From Owenweeksia hongkongensis DSM 17368 (GTDB taxonomy: Bacteria > Bacteroidota > Bacteroidia > Flavobacteriales > Schleiferiaceae): a DNA stretch of 64,000 bases. The position numbers and the translations under genes were made by a program. The DNA is taken from the NCBI RefSeq assembly GCF_000236705.1, contig NC_016599.1, positions 124,001 through 188,000 of the forward strand, in the 5' to 3' direction. The notes under the pieces were generated by a model that saw nothing but the letters and a program-made list of their open reading frames with translations, was not told where the DNA came from and searched no databases. Of this stretch, positions 9,231 through 18,765 are shown piece after piece. Position 1 is the stretch's first letter. Each line of letters begins with the position of its first letter.

Positions 9231-11061
9231 TGATGTAAGCGGTAAAGCTTTCGACCTAAAACTTTTACGTAAAATATTGACCTATGTGCGCCCGTACAAG
9301 GCTGTGTTTTATGGTGCAATGGTGCTTACGGTGGTTCTTTCGGCTTTGGGTACAGCTCGCCCTATTTTGATACAATATGTAATCGACAACTTTGTGATTA
9401 CACCTGATAGCGAAGGCCTTCTTAATTATACTTTGATTATTACAGGACTCCTGCTTTTAGAGTCTATTTTCCAGTTTTTCTTTACCTATGGAGCTAATTA
9501 TTTGGGGCAAAATATTATCCGTGATTTGCGGCTTCAGCTGTATGAACACATTCTTTCTTTTAAGCTTCAATACTTTGACCAAACGCCAATTGGCACACTG
9601 GTAACCCGTGCTGTATCGGATATTGAAACAATAGCCGATATTTTCGCGCAGGGTATTCTCACCATTTTTGGAGATATTTTCAAGATAGTGGTAATGATTG
9701 CCGCTATGTTCTACTTTTTTGACTTCAGGCTAGTATTGATTTCACTTTCAGTTGTTCCTGTTTTATTCTATGCCACACGTCTCTTTCAGCTTAAGATAAA
9801 GTCTGCATTTCAGGATGTCCGTACGCAGGTTTCTTCACTCAATGCTTTTGTACAAGAGCACCTTACGGGAATGAATATCGTTCAGATTTTTAATAGGGAG
9901 GAGGCTGAGATGGAAGAGTTTAAATCTATCAACGAAAAGCACAAGGCCGCAAATATTCGTTCTATTTGGTACTTCTCTATATTCCTTCCGGTAATAGAAA
10001 TCATGAGTGCCATAAGCATTGGCTTGGCGGTATGGTTTGGTGGACTAAAAGCTGCGCAGGAGGCAAGTAAAATTTCACTGGAGCTTTTACTTTACAGAGG
10101 AATGGGCTGGGATGTAGCTCCAGACATGACAATGATTACCCTGGGAGAAATAACGGCTGTTATCATTTTTATAAACATGCTTTTCCGCCCCCTGCGCCAA
10201 TTGGCTGATAGGTTCAATACCCTGCAGATGGGTATGGTAGCTTCGGAGCGTGTGTTCAAAATTTTAGAAACTAATTCCAGAATTGAAGATAAGGGAGACA
10301 TTGTGATGGATGATGTTCGTGGAGATATTGAGTTCCAAAATGTAAAGTTTGGCTACAAGTCTGATGAACTTATTTTGAAGGGAATTAGCTTTAAAGTAGA
10401 AGCCGGTCAAACCCTCGCCATTGTTGGTGCAACAGGAGCTGGTAAATCCACCATTGTAAACTTGCTAAGCCGTTTTTATGAAATCAATTCAGGGTCTATA
10501 AAAGTAGATGGGGTTGATATAAAAGATATGGACCTTGGTTCGCTTCGAGACCACTTGGCGGTGGTGCTTCAGGATGTGTTTTTGTTTTCGGATACCATCA
10601 TGAATAACATCACTTTGAGCAAGGATATTGAGCGCCATCAGGTAGAAGAAGCAGCGGCATTTATTGGTGTAGATGATTTTATTGAAAGCCTACCGGATAG
10701 TTATGATTACAATGTTCGTGAGCGTGGAAACATGATTTCGGTAGGGCAGAGGCAGCTACTGGCTTTTTTGCGTGCTTATGTTTCCGATCCTTCTGTTTTA
10801 ATTTTGGATGAAGCCACAAGTTCTATTGATACCCACAGCGAAAAGCTGATTCAAAAGGCTATTGATAAAATTACTGAGGGACGCACTTCTGTAATTATTG
10901 CTCACAGATTGGCTACCATCAAAAAAGCCGATAAAATATTGGTGATGGAGAAAGGTGAAATAGTAGAGGAAGGTACTCACTCTGAGCTGTTGGCCATGAA
11001 TGGCTATTACACCCGCCTTTATGAAATGCAGTTTAAAGCGGAGGAAGAAGATGTTACTTAA
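9220..11061 (+). CDS. ABC transporter, fused permease and ATPase (exporter type)
   Basis: A 613-residue half-transporter of the MsbA/multidrug exporter class. Six membrane segments lie in residues 25-350. Between segments 5 and 6 there is an insertion (AAQEASKISLELLLYRGMGWD), longer than in MsbA and frequent in Bacteroidota homologues. The nucleotide-binding domain has Walker A GATGAGKST (403-411), Walker B LILDEATSS and the H-loop IIAHRLATI. The signature is ISVGQRQ rather than LSGGQ, a variant seen in this subgroup. It probably works as a homodimer exporting lipid or drug. It overlaps truA and ends 8 bases into the convergent barrel gene. Confidence 0.93.
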   Translation: MASSDVSGKAFDLKLLRKILTYVRPYKAVFYGAMVLTVVLSALGTARPILIQYVIDNFVITPDSEGLLNYTLIITGLLLLESIFQFFFTYGANYLGQNIIRDLRLQLYEHILSFKLQYFDQTPIGTLVTRAVSDIETIADIFAQGILTIFGDIFKIVVMIAAMFYFFDFRLVLISLSVVPVLFYATRLFQLKIKSAFQDVRTQVSSLNAFVQEHLTGMNIVQIFNREEAEMEEFKSINEKHKAANIRSIWYFSIFLPVIEIMSAISIGLAVWFGGLKAAQEASKISLELLLYRGMGWDVAPDMTMITLGEITAVIIFINMLFRPLRQLADRFNTLQMGMVASERVFKILETNSRIEDKGDIVMDDVRGDIEFQNVKFGYKSDELILKGISFKVEAGQTLAIVGATGAGKSTIVNLLSRFYEINSGSIKVDGVDIKDMDLGSLRDHLAVVLQDVFLFSDTIMNNITLSKDIERHQVEEAAAFIGVDDFIESLPDSYDYNVRERGNMISVGQRQLLAFLRAYVSDPSVLILDEATSSIDTHSEKLIQKAIDKITEGRTSVIIAHRLATIKKADKILVMEKGEIVEEGTHSELLAMNGYYTRLYEMQFKAEEEDVT

Positions 11062-11713
11062 ACTCGTAAATTAAGCCAAGGCCTCCACGAATAAGCCAGT
11101 CTTTTCCATCTCCAATTCCAATTATGCCATCCCAGCCATCATTTCCTGCTGTGCGTGAAATAAAGTAACCTTCTAATAGCACTTGCTTAGTCAATCGTAT
11201 GGTAGCACCAGCTTCCAATTGAATCAATGCTTCGTATTTTGTCCCGTCATTTGTTTCGTAGCCCGGGGGTATATATTCAGGAGTATCGGATGAATTAATG
11301 GTTTGAGCAAATCCAAATCCAAATCCTACATAAGGTAAAAAGTCACCAGGTCTTGGTCTGCGTCTTCTCCGGCTTCTGCCTCTGCGTTTTTTTTCAAAAG
11401 GATTTGTTGAATATCGAAAACCAACTCCTAAATAAGTTTGATTAAACATGGTTTGAAATACGGTATCGGGCTCAAAGCTGTGCTCGATGTTTGCCGAACT
11501 GTGGGATACCTCTCCTACAAAAAGCCAGGGTGAATTTAGGAATAGATTGGTGTAAACAGCGCTAAAATCCACGCCATAGTTATCTTTAATACCGTCAGAG
11601 GTTTCACCACGTACATTGCAAAGGCCAGCGTGAAGGCTTAGGGCGGAAGTTTGTGCTGCTACATTTTTGACAAGAAATAATGAAATAAGTAATACTAAAA
11701 ATAAAATCCTCAT
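11054..11713 (-). CDS. outer membrane beta-barrel protein with Arg-rich loop
   Basis: A 219-residue protein with signal peptide (residues 1-20, cleavage after AAA) and alternating aromatic/polar strands of an OmpA/OmpW-size barrel, ending in a GGLGLIYEFK strand typical of outer membrane proteins. It resembles the 217-residue barrel encoded at 12684-13337 along its whole length, including the LHAGLCNVRGETSD / LRAGVATLQGETTSD start and the DGNDWLIHGGLGL-like end. A run of arginines at residues 109-121 (KRRGRSRRRRRPR) is absent from that paralogue and would lie in a turn or loop. Function unknown. It overlaps the ABC transporter gene tail to tail. Confidence 0.8.
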   Translation of the reverse strand: MRILFLVLLISLFLVKNVAAQTSALSLHAGLCNVRGETSDGIKDNYGVDFSAVYTNLFLNSPWLFVGEVSHSSANIEHSFEPDTVFQTMFNQTYLGVGFRYSTNPFEKKRRGRSRRRRRPRPGDFLPYVGFGFGFAQTINSSDTPEYIPPGYETNDGTKYEALIQLEAGATIRLTKQVLLEGYFISRTAGNDGWDGIIGIGDGKDWLIRGGLGLIYEFK

Positions 11714-11855: not shown

Positions 11856-12653
11856 CTAACGTTTACTTTGATTCCCTGCTTTCATTTGACTATACTTAAG
11901 AATAGACACAAAGAATGCTCCACCAATTGTATTTCCAATAATGGCGAAAATCAAAAACTCGAGGTAATCGTAGAGGGTGATGCTATCACCAACAAGTAGT
12001 CCGCTCAGCACTTCTATGTTTCCTACAATGCAGTGATGCAGACCGCCCACACCAATTATTAAGGTTATAAAAATCACTATTACAATATGGCTTATTGATT
12101 CGCGTACCGAGCCAATAAGCCAACCCAAAAGTCCCATCATCCAGCCTGCAAGTACAGCGGAGCCTAGTGTTATTTGCCAGTTGGGCTCCACCATTACTTT
12201 GGCAATATGCTCAAATGACTCAGCCGGTATTCGGCCACTTTCTGGGCCTATCCAAGTGATGAAAAGCGCAAAAAGAAGCCCTCCAACAAGGTTTCCTAAA
12301 ATTACAAAGCCCCATAGTCTGAGTAACTCCCCAACACTGGCTTTGCCATTGAGAACAGGTAAAATAGCCAAAGCCGTTTGCTCTGTAAAGAGTTCTGAGC
12401 GACCGATTATCACGAATATAAAACCAAGCGGGTATCCCAATGAAATGATGAGGTGTAAAACTTCAGGGTCTACTTTTCCGCTAAACATAGCATGAAGAAT
12501 TCCCATAAGCATTACTGAAAAACCAATTTCTAAACCTGCCGTAAAGGCGCTCAGGCTAAGCCCAACACTGGAACGTTCATAATCTCGAAAACCTAGTTTT
12601 ATCTGGTCTTCTACAATTTCGTCATGCTCCTTGGGTTTGTCGTTTTCTGCCAT
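11856..12653 (-). CDS. formate/nitrite transporter (FNT) family channel
   Basis: A 265-residue inner membrane protein with six hydrophobic segments after a charged N-terminus of about 35 residues. The FNT pattern is seen in SAFTAGLEIGFSVMLMGIL, in GRSELFTEQTALAILPVLNG (the L-F-T-E loop), in a central GWMMGLLGWLIGS and in VGGLHHCIVGNIEVLSGLL, where the conserved pore histidine region lies. The family carries formate, nitrite, hydrosulfide or related monovalent acids as pentamers. The E in the LFTEQ loop and the long N-terminus resemble the YfdC-like branch, whose substrate is unclear. It is flanked by two paralogous outer membrane barrel genes on the same strand. Confidence 0.9.
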   Translation of the reverse strand: MAENDKPKEHDEIVEDQIKLGFRDYERSSVGLSLSAFTAGLEIGFSVMLMGILHAMFSGKVDPEVLHLIISLGYPLGFIFVIIGRSELFTEQTALAILPVLNGKASVGELLRLWGFVILGNLVGGLLFALFITWIGPESGRIPAESFEHIAKVMVEPNWQITLGSAVLAGWMMGLLGWLIGSVRESISHIVIVIFITLIIGVGGLHHCIVGNIEVLSGLLVGDSITLYDYLEFLIFAIIGNTIGGAFFVSILKYSQMKAGNQSKR

Positions 12654-12683: not shown

Positions 12684-13337
12684 TTAAAAATGATATTGTA
12701 AACCTAATCCACCATGTATCAACCAGTCATTTCCATCACCGCTGCCGGAAAATCCATCCCAGCTGTCCGTGCCCCCAGTGCGTCCTCCTGTATAGGCATC
12801 AATGGCCCAGTGTTTTGACAGAACGATGATGAACCCAAATTCTGCGGAAGCGGTAAAATCCATTGTGCTTTCTTGGTGCAAAGTGTAGCCACCTAGTTTA
12901 TCAGTATCTAAATCTATGTCGTTACTGGTTTTTATAGCGCCAACACCAATTCCTATATAAGGTAAAAACTGACCCGCATAAGGCTTATACTCGTTGATTG
13001 AAGGATTCAAAATATGTCTGATTCCAACTCCAAAGTAGGTTTGAGCAACTTGTGTTTCCAAATTGGAAGAGGAGCCATCTCCTGTGAAATTCAGAGAGGC
13101 ATTTACAATGGAATGTGTAACCTCTGCTGTTGCGGCCCATTGCTCATTTTTCATAGAATAAGAATAGACTATACCAACTTCGGGACCTATACTTCCAAAC
13201 AAATTGTCTGAAGTAGTTTCTCCTTGAAGGGTGGCAACTCCTGCTCGGAGTGTAAGGGCTGATTTTGGTGATTGCTGCGAAAACGCAGATGTGGCACTGA
13301 CAATAAAGGCCAGTAGTAGAGAGCTCGAATGTTTCAT
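12684..13337 (-). CDS. outer membrane beta-barrel protein, paralogue of the 11054-11713 gene
   Basis: A 217-residue exported barrel: signal peptide to about residue 20 (SATSAFSQQ), then alternating strands with aromatic girdles and a terminal GGLGLQYHF strand ending in Phe, the outer membrane signature. Its DSWDGFSGSGDGNDWLIHGG end matches DGWDGIIGIGDGKDWLIRGG in the paralogue. It is 30 bases upstream of the FNT channel gene on the same strand, so the two are probably co-transcribed. Role unknown; co-location suggests an envelope function related to the channel. Confidence 0.8.
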   Translation of the reverse strand: MKHSSSLLLAFIVSATSAFSQQSPKSALTLRAGVATLQGETTSDNLFGSIGPEVGIVYSYSMKNEQWAATAEVTHSIVNASLNFTGDGSSSNLETQVAQTYFGVGIRHILNPSINEYKPYAGQFLPYIGIGVGAIKTSNDIDLDTDKLGGYTLHQESTMDFTASAEFGFIIVLSKHWAIDAYTGGRTGGTDSWDGFSGSGDGNDWLIHGGLGLQYHF

Positions 13338-14160: not shown

Positions 14161-15096
14161 ATGAGACGATATTACGATATACTCGGCCTGCAGGAGGGCG
14201 CTACCAAAAAAGAGATAAAGCAGGCTTATCGCAAAATGGCCATGCAGTATCATCCTGACCTTAATCCAGGAAAGGAATCCAAACAAAAGTTTATCGAAAT
14301 TCTAGAAGCCTATGAATACCTTATTGGTATTCGTCAGATGAACGAAGGCAAAGGGATGAGCTATGAGGATCTTCAGAAGTTTTATGAATTAATGAAGAAG
14401 GCTGCCGAAGAAAAAGCCAAGCGTGAGTACCGCGAAAAAGTAAGAGAGTTTAAAAAGGAAAAGGAGCGCAAGCAAGGGGAGGAGTACAAAAAAGCGATTT
14501 ACCTTTTGGTGGCTATTTGTATAGCGGCCATAGGGCTTTGGCAAGGGTATAAGTTTTACACCAACCTTATGATAAATGGTGATCGCCAAGTGGCCGAAGT
14601 TGAGGTAGTAGGTATTGGTATGAAGCGTTTGAAGTACGCCTTTCAGGTAGGAGATAGTCTTTATAAGGACGAGCAATACGTGAGTAATAATAAAATTGAA
14701 ATGATTTCTGGGAATGGGATGCCGCTAAAAACCGGAGATAGGTTTGAGGTGGAATTTTCACGAGGGGCACCTGCCTATCATCGTATAAATTTTGAAAGGG
14801 TATCCACCTCTACCATGCAGCGCTATTTTGCCATGGTTTCCTCCAAGCTTACCTATTTATTTTATGAAGAGTGGCAGCATCTCTCCAATGATGAAAAGAG
14901 GATAAGAGCGGCTTGTATCACCTCTATCGTGTTTAGTCGCCAAGGCTTTGAAGGCCTAAGCGACATTTACTATGCTGATGCCAATATACTCGACAACTTT
15001 TCACACAATAGCTGGACCTGGTACTTTATGAAAACCAGTGATGAGTTTGAGGAAATTCTAGCTGCTTGTCAGGTCATAGAAGAGGAGTTGCATTAA
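14161..15096 (+). CDS. membrane-anchored DnaJ-domain protein
   Basis: A 311-residue protein. Residues 1-60 are a J domain ([21 protein letters not shown], then the HPD motif in YHPDLNPG), expected to stimulate an Hsp70 ATPase. A very charged helix follows ([21 protein letters not shown]), then one membrane segment (about 117-135, [19 protein letters not shown]) and a 170-residue C-terminal domain with no recognised signature. The arrangement recalls J proteins tethered to the inner membrane with an extracytoplasmic tail. The client is unknown. It meets the convergent gmhA gene with a 4-base overlap. Confidence 0.85.
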
Positions 15097-15695
15097 CTCA
15101 CTCTATCATCATACACCTTACCCATACTTGGATTGTCGCCCATCAGGGTGGCTTGCATTTCCTTCTTTATGATGTTGAAAATAATCATGTGAATGTCTTC
15201 ACACACTTCCATATCCATGACATCAGCATGAACTGATATATCCGCAAGCCTGCTGATTTTGCCACCATTAAAACCTGAAAGAGCGAGGGTTTTTACACCT
15301 TGGTCTTTGGCGTAAGTCATAGCACGAACCACATTCTCAGAATTCCCGCTTCCGCTGATACCGATTACCAAATCGTCTTTACCAATGAAGTTTTTCAGGG
15401 GCTCAATAAAAATATCCTCGTAGCCAATATCATTGGCAATAGCCATCATGGAGGCAATATTGTCGTTCAGGCAAATCATTTTAAAACGCTTGTCCAAACC
15501 ATAACTCGCACCTTTTAGGAAGTCACCCGCTACGTGAGAAGCCGTAGCCCCGCTACCACCATTTCCAAACACATAAATGTTTCCACCTTTGTGGTAGGCA
15601 TCCAAAAATGCCTGAGCGGCCGCGTTTATTGCCGATTGATCTAGTTTGTCAATAGTTTGTTTTACAAGTCCTAAATATTCTTTTGCCTTATCCAT
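15093..15695 (-). CDS. gmhA: D-sedoheptulose 7-phosphate isomerase (SIS domain)
   Basis: A 200-residue SIS-fold enzyme that converts sedoheptulose 7-phosphate to D-glycero-D-manno-heptose 7-phosphate, the first step of heptose nucleotide synthesis. The phosphate-binding block [22 protein letters not shown] (residues 42-63) and the second block [14 protein letters not shown] (about 112-125) are GmhA-like, as is the ending with [13 protein letters not shown]. It overlaps the upstream hddA-type gene by 8 bases, so the two are translationally coupled. Confidence 0.94.
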
Positions 15696-16671
15696 TTCCG
15701 TAGTGTATTAGTTTGGAGCCTTCTTGTTCAAATTTAAAATCAAATCTACGCACTTTGTGTAGTGCTTCATCCAGCTTTTGCTGTTTTTCCTTTGGGCAGT
15801 AAAACAACATAAATCCTCCGCCACCAGCTCCCAAAAGTTTTCCGCCAAGCGCTCCGTTTTTCATGGCGGTTTCATATAATTCATTTATCAATGGACTTGT
15901 GATTCCTGAAGCCAGCTGTTGCTTCATCATCCAGTTTTCATGCATGATGTGGCCAAAAGAATCCAAATCTCCTTTCATCAAAACATCCCTCAATTCATAT
16001 ACCAGCTTCACCATATTTTGAAGCGTTTTGAATTTATCGGCCTGCGCTGTATTCTTTTTTTGCTCCGACAGGATGGAGGAAGCACTTCTTTGATTTCCGA
16101 TGTAATAAAGACAAAGATTGTCTTGTAATGTATTGTAATTATCTGCCGAAAGGTAAACGGGATTTACCGTTACCAATCCGTTTTTATGAAACTCAATTAC
16201 GTTAAGGCCACCATAAGCCGCAGCATATTGATCTTGCTTCCCGATGGGTTCTTTGAGGATGTCAATTTCTATTTCACAAGCTTCTTTGCCTAGGGTTTCC
16301 TTGCTGGCATATAAGTTTTGCGTAACGTGTAAATTATGCAAAAGCCCCACTGTAAAAGAAGAAGATGATCCCATACCGGTACCCCCGGGGATATCAGAAA
16401 TAGAGCTTATTTCAATACCTCCGCTGATGTTGAATTTCTCCAAAGCCGTTCTGAGAATCGGGTGCTTTAGCTCCGAGACAGCAGATACAGTCTCAGTTTG
16501 CGAGTACTTGGTGCGTATTTTATCTTCTTCAAAAAACTTGTGTGAAGAAATGTACATATACTTATTGATGGATGTGCTGAGCACAGCCCCCGTACTTTGC
16601 GAATAAAAAGCTTCCAAATCGGAGCCTCCGCCTACAAAGCTTATCCTAAAAGGGGTTTGGGTGATTATCAT
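15688..16671 (-). CDS. hddA: GHMP kinase, D-glycero-alpha-D-manno-heptose 7-phosphate kinase type
   Basis: A 327-residue GHMP-superfamily kinase. Motif 1 is TQTPFRISFVGGGSDLEAFY, typical of HddA-like kinases. Motif 2, the ATP phosphate loop, is PGGTGMGSSSSF (95-106). Motif 3 is LLGAGGGGFMLFYC (about 280-293). HddA phosphorylates heptose 7-phosphate at C1 to the alpha-1,7-bisphosphate, committing it to the GDP-heptose route rather than the ADP-heptose route. Context between gmhA and a gene with both GmhB and guanylyltransferase-like domains supports that assignment. Fucokinase-type kinases share the fold but the neighbours argue against this. Confidence 0.9.
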   Translation of the reverse strand: MIITQTPFRISFVGGGSDLEAFYSQSTGAVLSTSINKYMYISSHKFFEEDKIRTKYSQTETVSAVSELKHPILRTALEKFNISGGIEISSISDIPGGTGMGSSSSFTVGLLHNLHVTQNLYASKETLGKEACEIEIDILKEPIGKQDQYAAAYGGLNVIEFHKNGLVTVNPVYLSADNYNTLQDNLCLYYIGNQRSASSILSEQKKNTAQADKFKTLQNMVKLVYELRDVLMKGDLDSFGHIMHENWMMKQQLASGITSPLINELYETAMKNGALGGKLLGAGGGGFMLFYCPKEKQQKLDEALHKVRRFDFKFEQEGSKLIHYGNG

Positions 16672-16783
16672 ACGAGCAAAGGTGTTTGTTGCAAAGAAAG
16701 CAAGCTTTTCATAAAAATGCCATGGAAACTTATTTATCTATTAAAATTCGGAAAAGTTTGAAGTGTACTAAATCAAAAGACAG

Positions 16784-16881
16784 ATTCCGGTCTGTCTCGC
16801 AAAATTGCAGGGGTCTTCGTTTCTTCTTCGCCCGGAATGAAATGTAAGGCAAGTCTGATCATTCCGGCCTTGAGCCGGAAT
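16784..16881. repeat. intergenic element with nested ATTCCGG/CCGGAAT inverted repeats
   Basis: attccgg at 16784-16790 pairs with ccggaat at 16832-16838, and attccggc at 16861-16868 pairs with gccggaat at 16874-16881 (8-bp stem, 5-base loop). The block fills the gap between the three-domain heptose gene and the hddA-type gene and looks like a dispersed intergenic repeat rather than coding sequence. The second hairpin lies immediately after the three-domain gene stop and may process or attenuate its transcript. Confidence 0.55.
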
Positions 16882-16896
16882 CTTTACCTTACAATG

Positions 16897-18765
16897 CTAA
16901 ATCACCAAATCCGCAAACTCCTCATTTTGTGCAATCAGATCATACTCATTTGGCTTCCGTGTTTCCCACAAAACATGAATAGATTCTTCGCTATAGCCTT
17001 TCCAGTCATAATACGTGAACATTCGTTGCTTTAGCAAATCTTCACTTATGTTTTTAAAAATCTTAAAGTCACTTATTGTGCGAAGGCTCTCAGTAGCCAG
17101 AGCTACCACGCCTTCTATCAAAATTACTTTCTGTCCTTCCAGTTTGTAGGTCACATCTTCCACATCATAATCGGGGTGAGGGGTGTAACCTTTTAATTCT
17201 ATGGTTTCACCATTAATAATGGATTGCACGTCACTTTCCAGTTTGTCAATTTGAAAATTGTGAAACACTTCCTCTTTGCCGATTCGTTCGGATTTTGGCA
17301 AAATCCAATGATCCAAAGTTATCCTTAGGCAATCTATGCCGTCAGCCTTTAGCTGCTTTTGCAGATAAGTGGCAAGGGTGGATTTTCCGCTTCTCGTGTT
17401 TCCACCGATGTTGATTACCAAGGTTTCTTTTGAGCTGGTACTCACTAAATCTTTCACCTTGGCAGCTAAGTCTTTATAAGGCTCGTCAACTATAAAGTTG
17501 GCGGCTTCCTCCAAATTGGCAAACAAGTAATCGGGTTTGGTTTTGGCTTTTCTTAACCCAAAGCCAGTCATCACGCCAACCGTGGTACAGCCAGCAGCTT
17601 TTCCTGCACCCATATCACCTTCTGAGTCACCAATCATAAAAGATTGTAAGGGGTCGATGTTATAATCTCGGGAAGCATTATTTATCATTCCGGGCTTTGG
17701 CTTGCGGCAATCGCAGTCTATTTTGTAAGCCACATTTTCTTCTGGGTAACCTTTGTCAGGATGATGTGGACAATAATAAATGGCGTCCAGTTTTGCGCCA
17801 GCATCACCAAGCTCAGTTTCCATTTTTTTATGAATCTCTCCAAGTCCCTGTATGGTAGTAAGATTTCTGGCTACCACACTTTGGTTAGTGGTCACTACAG
17901 CTAAATAATCTGAAGTGTTGATTTTTGAAATAGCTCTAGCCGTAAAAGGGTAGAGGTGAAAATCTTCTGGTTTGTGGATGAGGTCAACATTCTCATTAAT
18001 CACACCATCCCTATCCAGAAAAATTGCCTTTTGACGATTTTCCAGATTTCTCTTTCTCACCTTGCCAGATTGCACATCATGCCCTACATGCTCCAGCCTG
18101 TCTGGGGTTCCCATGTCCTTTAGATATTCGGGCGTGTTGTAGCCATACATCTTTAGATCAGTAAAAACACGAGGGAAAATATCTTTTCCAAAATCTGCTT
18201 TTTTACCTTTTTCAAGGAAGGGGAAAATGGCTGGCGACAAAATATATACCGCTGCATTTACCATGTTGTGGTAGATCAAATCTGCAGAATGCGGCTTGGG
18301 GAGCACATTAACAATGAGTCCTTCTTCGTCCATTTCTACCAAATCGCTATCGTAAGGATGATCATTTGGATGCACTACCAAAGTAGCCTGGCTTCCTTTT
18401 TCATTGTGAAAATTTGCAAGACGTTTGAGGTCCATCTCCATCATCACATCTCCGTAAAGGACAAGAAAATCTTCGGTAAGTTCTGCTTCCAAATCCTTTA
18501 TTCCACCAACGGTGCCCAGGGGTTTTTCTTCTTGATAGTAACGGATTTTGATACCAAAATCGGCACCATCGCCAAAGTGGTCTTTTATAGGTTGGCTCAA
18601 GTGATTTACGATAAGTATAACCTCCGAAAAGCCATAGCGCACCAGTAATTCTATTTGGTATTGCAAAAGTGGTTTGCCCAAAAGGGGAACCATGGGCTTG
18701 GGAATATCTTTGGTAAGCTCGCCCAGACGGGTACCTCTACCGCCCGCAAGTATTACTACTTTCAT
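16897..18765 (-). CDS. three-domain heptose enzyme: nucleotidyltransferase + GmhB phosphatase + P-loop kinase-like
   Basis: A 622-residue fusion. Residues 1-235: sugar nucleotidyltransferase with VILAGGRGTRLGELTKDIPKPM (pyrophosphorylase loop, 4-25) and YGDVMME, most like HddC guanylyltransferase. Residues 245-425: HAD-IIIA phosphatase, GmhB type, with nucleophile block FLDRDGV (D251, D253), Zn ligands C332/H334 and C351/C353, and IGDSEGD (378-384). Residues 445-622: P-loop kinase-like domain with Walker A GGNTRSGKST (454-463), DHWILP near 485 and a VILIEGVVAL strand, resembling uridine kinase or phosphoribulokinase. Domains 1-2 supply the dephosphorylation and GDP-transfer steps; the third domain has no role in the known pathway. 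Confidence 0.9.
   Translation of the reverse strand: MKVVILAGGRGTRLGELTKDIPKPMVPLLGKPLLQYQIELLVRYGFSEVILIVNHLSQPIKDHFGDGADFGIKIRYYQEEKPLGTVGGIKDLEAELTEDFLVLYGDVMMEMDLKRLANFHNEKGSQATLVVHPNDHPYDSDLVEMDEEGLIVNVLPKPHSADLIYHNMVNAAVYILSPAIFPFLEKGKKADFGKDIFPRVFTDLKMYGYNTPEYLKDMGTPDRLEHVGHDVQSGKVRKRNLENRQKAIFLDRDGVINENVDLIHKPEDFHLYPFTARAISKINTSDYLAVVTTNQSVVARNLTTIQGLGEIHKKMETELGDAGAKLDAIYYCPHHPDKGYPEENVAYKIDCDCRKPKPGMINNASRDYNIDPLQSFMIGDSEGDMGAGKAAGCTTVGVMTGFGLRKAKTKPDYLFANLEEAANFIVDEPYKDLAAKVKDLVSTSSKETLVINIGGNTRSGKSTLATYLQKQLKADGIDCLRITLDHWILPKSERIGKEEVFHNFQIDKLESDVQSIINGETIELKGYTPHPDYDVEDVTYKLEGQKVILIEGVVALATESLRTISDFKIFKNISEDLLKQRMFTYYDWKGYSEESIHVLWETRKPNEYDLIAQNEEFADLVI

Follow-up and report, generated by a model that had tools for sequence, protein, structure and literature searches.

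A PRK/UDK-fold kinase domain fused to HddC-like and GmhB-like domains in Owenweeksia hongkongensis: a distinct family with a possible accessory role in the GDP-heptose route

We describe a gene of Owenweeksia hongkongensis that joins three domains in a single polypeptide: a sugar nucleotidyltransferase, a GmhB-like phosphatase and a kinase-like domain of the phosphoribulokinase/uridine kinase (PRK/UDK) type. We observed that the three-domain architecture is widespread and recurs in Bacteroidota and on plasmids of Rhizobium and Methylovirgula, that the fused kinase domains form a separate family, and that this domain is under purifying selection. The Owenweeksia protein probably makes GDP-heptose, with two enzymes of that route joined in it to an intact-looking kinase domain. 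Our best explanation of the third domain, to which we assign a probability of about 0.4, is that it may be an accessory kinase whose substrate is a phosphorylated seven-carbon (C7) intermediate in the GDP-heptose route.

The window, that is the whole stretch of 64,000 nucleotides that was analysed, covers bases 124001-188000 of a source genome consisting of a single contig of 4,000,057 bases. The same genome size, 4,000,057 bp, is published for the O. hongkongensis type strain (PMC3570807). The three-domain gene lies at 16897..18765 on the minus strand and encodes 622 aa from an ATG start. In this protein Pfam identified NTP_transferase at residues 2-231 (5.8e-39), HAD hydrolase families within residues 339-421 and PRK at residues 450-622 (3.2e-11, 43.9 bits, cut-off 22). 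The full-length model had a pLDDT of 94.0 and a pTM of 0.92. An earlier sequence-only reading had placed three domains in this one gene, and Pfam, the GmhB models and the fold matches agreed with it. The frame did not arise by chance, because it was present in 16 of the 40 genomes searched, its own included; in these 16 the kinase domain lay in a frame of 626-651 aa, and six weak matches were found in frames of 204-226 aa.

The first domain, residues 1-240 (18046..18765, minus strand), is a sugar-1-phosphate nucleotidyltransferase domain (PF00483, 5.8e-39). Its residues G8, G9, G11, R13, K23, D106 and D217 were invariant across 16 aligned rows. The full-length model matched the HddC structure 5xhw from Yersinia pseudotuberculosis (TM 0.86 of target). 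Since the score with the HddC equivalog NF049965 was below the cut-off (98.6 bits vs 300), we label the domain HddC-like only, on the basis of the 5xhw fold match and of the gene neighbours. The second domain, residues 244-428 (17482..18036, minus strand), resembles the heptose-1,7-bisphosphate 7-phosphatase GmhB. GmhB models spanned residues 245-426 and all remained below their cut-offs (NF006506, 166.8 bits vs 178; TIGR00213, 121.6 vs 149.6; NF050049, 96.9 vs 250), therefore this domain is called GmhB-like only. The full-length model matched the E. coli GmhB structure 3l8e with a TM of 0.91 of target. A putative Zn-binding loop, C332-x-H334 ... C351-x-C353, is located at 17707..17772 on the minus strand. 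Its four residues, together with the HAD residues D251 and D253, were invariant in 16/16 three-domain rows and in 23/23 two- and three-domain rows (the window included in both), in line with the intact Zn ligands described previously. The Zn-ligand roles of C332, H334, C351 and C353 are presumed by analogy with E. coli GmhB.

Downstream of the three-domain gene and on the same strand we found an hddA-like gene, followed by a gmhA-like gene. The hddA-like gene (15688..16671, minus strand, 327 aa) encodes a GHMP kinase, a candidate heptose-7-phosphate 1-kinase; the HddA model NF049969 was its best match, at 167.8 bits and thus below the cut-off of 600. The gmhA-like gene (15093..15695, minus strand, 200 aa) encodes an SIS isomerase, a candidate sedoheptulose-7-phosphate isomerase, with TIGR00441 gmhA as the best model (106 bits, below the cut-off of 209). 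A four-step GDP-D-glycero-D-manno-heptose route involving HddC, GmhB, HddA and GmhA is described for C. jejuni (PMC10680097). All four activities of that route have homologues here in three adjacent genes, but one protein combines two of the steps and bears, in addition, a kinase domain that is absent from the route as described. All four known steps therefore appear to be covered by candidates other than the kinase domain, with both neighbours scoring below the HddA and GmhA cut-offs.

Homologues of HddA and GmhA were detected in 25 and 26, respectively, of the 30 family genomes tested. All 18 three-domain genomes of this set had GmhA, and 17 of them HddA, the exception being a 70%-complete genome; the seven two-domain genomes all had both. 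Four of the five genomes that did not match the fused gene had neither homologue; the fifth, G003, a genome of the same genus (92% complete, 360 contigs), had both. With homologues of HddA and GmhA at hand, the kinase domain takes the place of none of the known steps. The idea that it substitutes for HddA was ruled out, since HddA-like and GmhA-like genes adjoin it or sit elsewhere in the genome. On the same grounds we dropped the argument from the order of steps, by which a C-terminal kinase would act just ahead of the phosphatase in the pathway, where HddA acts. A defence role was also considered, and PADLOC gave no match at E 0.01.

We surveyed the spread of the fusion in several collections. 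Among 88 genomes of the family, 63 matched the nucleotidyltransferase-phosphatase part at E 1e-30. In 21 of these 63, belonging to 11 genera, the frames were 619-653 aa long and the kinase domain was present in every one. The other 42 had frames of at most 496 aa, some of them contig fragments, and 41 of the 42 belong to two genera (g5 and g11) with genomes of 1.3-2.5 Mb. Relatives among the two-domain family members (L064 and L071) are labelled Cryomorphaceae or Schleiferiaceae. The genome_contigs scan gave 584 confirmed places. Among the best 80 of them, all three domains were found in seven, a frame that joins nucleotidyltransferase and phosphatase but lacks the kinase in 65, and no such two-domain frame in eight; an HddA-like or GmhA-like gene was in the fetched stretch of 67 of these 80. 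The seven three-domain loci (L058-L062, L099 and L100) come from Bacteroidales and Flavobacteriales MAGs, Polyangium and Nitrospirillum. In the Polyangium copy the acceptor segment is missing, and the kinase domain is nevertheless fused.

On plasmids (72,556 records), 435 records matched and 54 covered at least 80% of the query. The best 25 matches listed were from Rhizobium (24) and Methylovirgula (1). In three annotated plasmid loci that were read, two of Rhizobium and one of Methylovirgula, the gene is labelled 'HAD-IIIA family hydrolase', and a GHMP kinase, an SIS protein and an epimerase-like protein are encoded nearby. A survey for the same domain order had been proposed in the sequence-only reading, and by these counts the order is not a one-off. 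Three long frames with weak matches proved to be a uridine-kinase-like protein behind a seemingly spurious upstream frame (L153), a fusion of a membrane protein with PRK (L154), and another PRK-domain protein (L155).

The kinase domain occupies residues 446-622 (16900..17430, minus strand). Taken alone it matched PF00485 at 8.1e-13 (49.1 bits, cut-off 22), and modelled alone it had a pLDDT of 94. The Walker A motif GGNTRSGKST is at residues 454-463 (17377..17406, minus strand), as had been read before, and its G455, G460 and K461 were invariant in 47/47 fused kinases. D485 (17311..17313, minus strand), a candidate catalytic base, was kept in 47/47 fused and 34/34 stand-alone kinases. The domain thus has the Walker A motif, the catalytic Asp and the fold of the PRK/uridine kinase superfamily. 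The best Z scores in the fold search were 19.6-20.1 to uridine kinase, PRK and PanK, or 19.6-20.4 with a putative fructose-transport kinase included, so that among the matches listed these families were about equally close and the fold does not pick a substrate. The score over the PF00485 cut-off and the fold matches upheld the P-loop kinase likeness claimed in the sequence-only reading.

Models of single enzymes were less close. The nearest named models were those of uridine kinases, and their equivalog cut-offs were missed widely (TIGR00235, 53.9 bits vs 220.3; NF004018, 55.4 vs 180); the phosphoribulokinase model NF005655 was also below its cut-off (44.1 vs 236). The best match of a single-sequence PDB search was phosphoribulokinase, whereas with the family profile of the domain the best matches were uridine kinases and not PRK. 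With uridine kinase (Udk/UCK) the fused domain shares the P-loop, the catalytic Asp, a conserved Tyr, an E/D-G on the Walker B side and the overall fold; it differs in having W487 for Y, R494, W588 for E, R603, and E607 for H. With phosphoribulokinase it shares the fold and an Arg at the position of R603, but the C-terminal part of PRK is missing here, and alignments to the three best chains end at PRK residue 182-184 of 333-343. A genome-wide search of the source genome gave no second PF00485 match beyond the fused kinase domain.

We compared 47 fused kinase rows, drawn from Bacteroidota and Alphaproteobacteria, with 34 stand-alone uridine-kinase-like rows from Bacteroidota only; the degenerate row of L099 was left out of the tree. 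The two sets were placed on opposite sides of one branch with a support of 100. The P-loop G, G and K, D485, Y527 and G552 were common to all rows of both sets. Other positions separated them. W487 was found in 47/47 fused rows, while stand-alone rows had Y (33/34) or F (1/34). R494 was likewise present in 47/47, with no Arg and one Lys among the 34 stand-alone rows, and R603 in 47/47, with Arg in 0/34. E607 was kept in all 47 (H in 28/34 stand-alone) and W588 in 45 (E in 30/34). At the position of P529, F or Y was found in 34/34 stand-alone rows; fused rows had R in 18, F in one and other residues in the rest (n = 47). The aromatic that follows the conserved Tyr, which we take to stack on the base in uridine kinase structures, is therefore lost in 46/47 fused kinases, the window included. 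R603 fell on the phosphoribulokinase Arg in both printed alignments; the R494 loop shifts between the two and is placed less surely.

A class survey was performed on 395 genomes drawn from a larger group, with at most eight candidates scored per genome and a threshold of E 1e-19, and 47 kinase-domain matches passed. The 16 strong matches (at least 99.4 bits) all lay in frames of 624-684 aa, and each of the 15 besides the window contained all three domains. The 31 weaker matches (at most 88.4 bits) were in frames of 203-287 aa and were judged stand-alone by frame length. No stand-alone member of the fused-kinase subfamily, which was sought as a clue to the substrate, was present among the strong matches. 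The kinase domain is tied to the pathway in that strong survey matches occur only in fused form and HddA and GmhA homologues co-occur.

Three pairs, with Ks of 0.44-1.52, gave Ka/Ks values of 0.062, 0.118 and 0.125 for the kinase domain; the corresponding values of the phosphatase domain were 0.059, 0.081 and 0.069. Each of the remaining three pairs showed saturation of Ks in two or in all three domains. The kinase domain was also the fastest to diverge, with a mean pairwise identity of 0.37 vs 0.53 and 0.61 for its partner domains. With its catalytic residues invariant and Ka/Ks low, we infer that it is catalytically competent.

The two-domain nucleotidyltransferase-HAD proteins share the same first ~428 residues (46-61% identical in two-domain family members) but have no kinase domain; in plasmid records they too are named 'HAD-IIIA family hydrolase'. 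In a quick tree, the two-domain proteins of the two small-genome genera nested among three-domain Bacteroidota rows with supports of 88 and 98, which we read as two losses of the kinase domain. These two lineages thus appear to have lost it while retaining the other genes of the route. In the 14 family loci fetched as two-domain examples, the two-domain genes had no kinase domain next to them. In 13 two-domain genomes, PF00485 gave no match in 11 and matched in part, within a frame of 609 aa, in two; these absences are uncertain, because G434, a three-domain genome whose fused domain is known, was also missed by this search. The nucleotidyltransferase-phosphatase tree, made by the quick method, required seven changes of label, five of them forced by well-supported branches, and the kinase tree shows a single split against the uridine-kinase-like proteins. 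These trees would fit either one origin with losses or transfer of the domain. A domain kept by selection and yet dispensable for the known steps would suit an accessory activity.

In the mechanism that we propose, the gmhA-like and hddA-like neighbours would supply the first two steps, the GmhB-like domain would take off the 7-phosphate and the HddC-like domain would transfer GMP to give GDP-D-glycero-D-manno-heptose. The kinase domain would phosphorylate, at the expense of ATP, a phosphorylated C7 intermediate at a primary hydroxyl. Kinases of the PRK/UDK fold are known to act on primary hydroxyls, such as uridine O5', ribulose-5-phosphate O1, pantothenate O4', nicotinamide riboside O5' and glycerate O3. 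An aldoheptose has a single primary hydroxyl, O7; sedoheptulose has two, O1 and O7. As R494 and R603 are private to the fused set and R603 falls on the PRK Arg, the residue pattern suggests an anionic acceptor, and this, taken together with the primary-hydroxyl chemistry, would point to a kinase for a phosphorylated C7 intermediate. Among possible acceptors we put O7 of heptose 1-phosphate or of GDP-heptose first, as these are products of the same polypeptide, and O1 of sedoheptulose 7-phosphate next. We propose a pathway sugar as the acceptor, and O7 of heptose 1-phosphate or GDP-heptose is our leading guess, and a tentative one. A kinase acting on the product of a phosphatase in its own chain could form a futile cycle, which counts against this explanation, as do the fast divergence, the Polyangium copy, G003, the transporter in Rhizobium described below, the near-equal fold closeness and the unsure R494 loop.

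The second acceptor corresponds to a PRK-like sedoheptulose-7-phosphate 1-kinase, which would make sedoheptulose 1,7-bisphosphate and so divert or gate the precursor. We count it inside our best explanation and consider it doubtful. Sedoheptulose 7-phosphate is the C7 analogue of ribulose 5-phosphate, and both the alignment of R603 with the PRK Arg and the single-sequence PDB match are in its favour, but the family-profile matches are not, and such an enzyme would drain its own pathway. Salvage is a rather unlikely but serious alternative to the accessory kinase. Here free sedoheptulose or D,D-heptose would be phosphorylated at O7 and would feed GmhA or HddA. This would account for both the dispensability of the domain and its fusion to the pathway, and there is a precedent in FKP, the L-fucokinase/GDP-fucose pyrophosphorylase, where a sugar kinase is fused to a GDP-sugar pyrophosphorylase. 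FKP resembles the protein here in that a single polypeptide combines, for a GDP-sugar, a nucleotidyltransferase with a sugar kinase; its kinase is of the GHMP fold, whereas the present one is of the P-loop type and is separated from the nucleotidyltransferase by a phosphatase. Each of the two Rhizobium loci that were read has a carbohydrate ABC transporter ~1-6 kb upstream of its SIS gene and on the same strand; it consists of a binding protein, two permeases and a UgpC-type ATPase (three L180 proteins were rechecked). This transporter may fit salvage of a free sugar better, or may be unrelated. No comparable one is annotated in the Methylovirgula stretch, and in other loci some of the neighbours are annotated. 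The two invariant arginines would suit an anionic acceptor rather than a free sugar, and a feeder of the first step would more naturally be joined to GmhA. Among ten annotated neighbour proteins of three-domain loci, two groups of family-2 glycosyltransferases recurred (8/29 and 6/29 loci), and these ten otherwise contained nothing specific as a substrate clue.

Two roles suggested in the sequence-only reading fared less well. The domain would be a nucleoside or nucleotide kinase if, for example, it supplied GTP to the guanylyltransferase. We regard this as improbable: uridine kinases are the nearest named models and the genome holds no other PF00485 match, but their equivalog cut-offs were missed and the base-pocket aromatic, present in 34/34 stand-alone kinases, is kept in 1/47 fused ones, so that phosphorylation of nucleosides such as uridine is disfavoured. 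Nor would 11 of the 13 two-domain genomes, with no PF00485 match in a search that is not fully sensitive (it missed G434), be expected on this basis. Equally improbable, in our estimate, is a domain that binds ATP without catalysis and serves as a sensor of energy status or as a scaffold for its two partners. Its absence from two lineages that keep the route, its rate of evolution and the missing acceptor segment in Polyangium would agree with such a regulatory use. The catalytic Asp, the Walker Lys and the acceptor-side residues are, however, invariant in 47/47, which exceeds the needs of ATP binding alone, and because of this and of the low Ka/Ks a purely regulatory use is disfavoured. Overall, the domains, the kinase similarity and the lack of a known step for the third domain, for which the four steps have other candidates, stood from that reading; the nucleoside and regulatory roles are disfavoured, and the hddA-like and gmhA-like neighbours had gone unmentioned.

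Among the open-access papers listed we recognised none on the three-domain fusion, in agreement with the earlier reading, which knew of no characterised enzyme with this domain order. PMC8305728 and PMC1963479 treat gmhB and fusions in passages that mention no such three-domain protein. Public databases already contain the fusion, but its name on plasmids, 'HAD-IIIA family hydrolase', is uninformative and conceals the nucleotidyltransferase as well as the kinase.

In summary, a conserved kinase domain fused to the last two enzymes of the route implies either that a metabolite is missing from the scheme, be it a phosphorylated heptose or an input from salvage, or that there is a control point. 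The kinase domain is found in Bacteroidota and in alphaproteobacteria, many Rhizobium plasmids included. It is unlikely, though worth stating, that this undescribed kinase family acts on O7 of heptose 1-phosphate or GDP-heptose and that surface glycans are built from a 7-phosphoheptose donor. If the O7-kinase reading were true, the domain would add a fifth enzymatic step to a pathway thought to be complete.

We searched the whole Owenweeksia hongkongensis genome for matches to PF00485, the family of the kinase domain in the three-domain gene (16897-18765, minus strand). The fused kinase domain was the sole match, and the search detected no uridine kinase of this family apart from it in that genome. 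The gene is parted from hddA, the hddA-like GHMP kinase gene (15688-16671, minus strand), by 225 bp (16672-16896) that contain repeat-like palindromic DNA with the motif 'ATTCCGG'. In several relatives the two genes overlap or lie at most about 50 bases apart. A 146-bp query taken from this spacer gave five further partial matches in the same genome. Elsewhere in the window, a putative membrane transporter gene (11856-12653) stands between two small proteins (11054-11713 and 12684-13337), which are alike by eye and may be outer-membrane barrels.

Between the three-domain genes of two close relatives, L145:9767-11644 and L161:4353-6230, Ks was 0.12, 0.62 and 1.52 by domain, from the N- to the C-terminus. 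Since these values are strongly unequal, they suggest intragenic recombination in this pair. The Polyangium three-domain protein (L099:10001-11779) has a kinase domain with the P-loop and without the acceptor-binding segment. A diverged three-domain protein (L152:8311-10239) comes from an 80%-complete genome of the phylum to which Owenweeksia belongs. In the tree it was placed among alphaproteobacterial and Hydrogenedentota rows, and therefore contamination or transfer is possible.

Other fusions were also met. A GmhB-type HAD domain is joined to a GmhA-type SIS domain in a Euryarchaeota MAG (L123:5976-7070), a further heptose-route fusion, and an NAD-dependent epimerase/dehydratase is joined to a GmhA-type SIS domain in one protein of Candidatus Daviesbacteria (L111:1234-2874). 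The 698-aa frame L154:7459-9555 joins a PRK-family kinase domain to a stretch of about 400 residues that, by eye, resembles a membrane protein.

One rival reading is salvage, in which the fused kinase would phosphorylate free sedoheptulose or D,D-heptose at O7. In both Rhizobium loci read, carbohydrate ABC transporter genes (L179:1-3886 and L180:997-5085) lie upstream of the SIS gene on the same strand. These transporter genes may be linked to sugar salvage.
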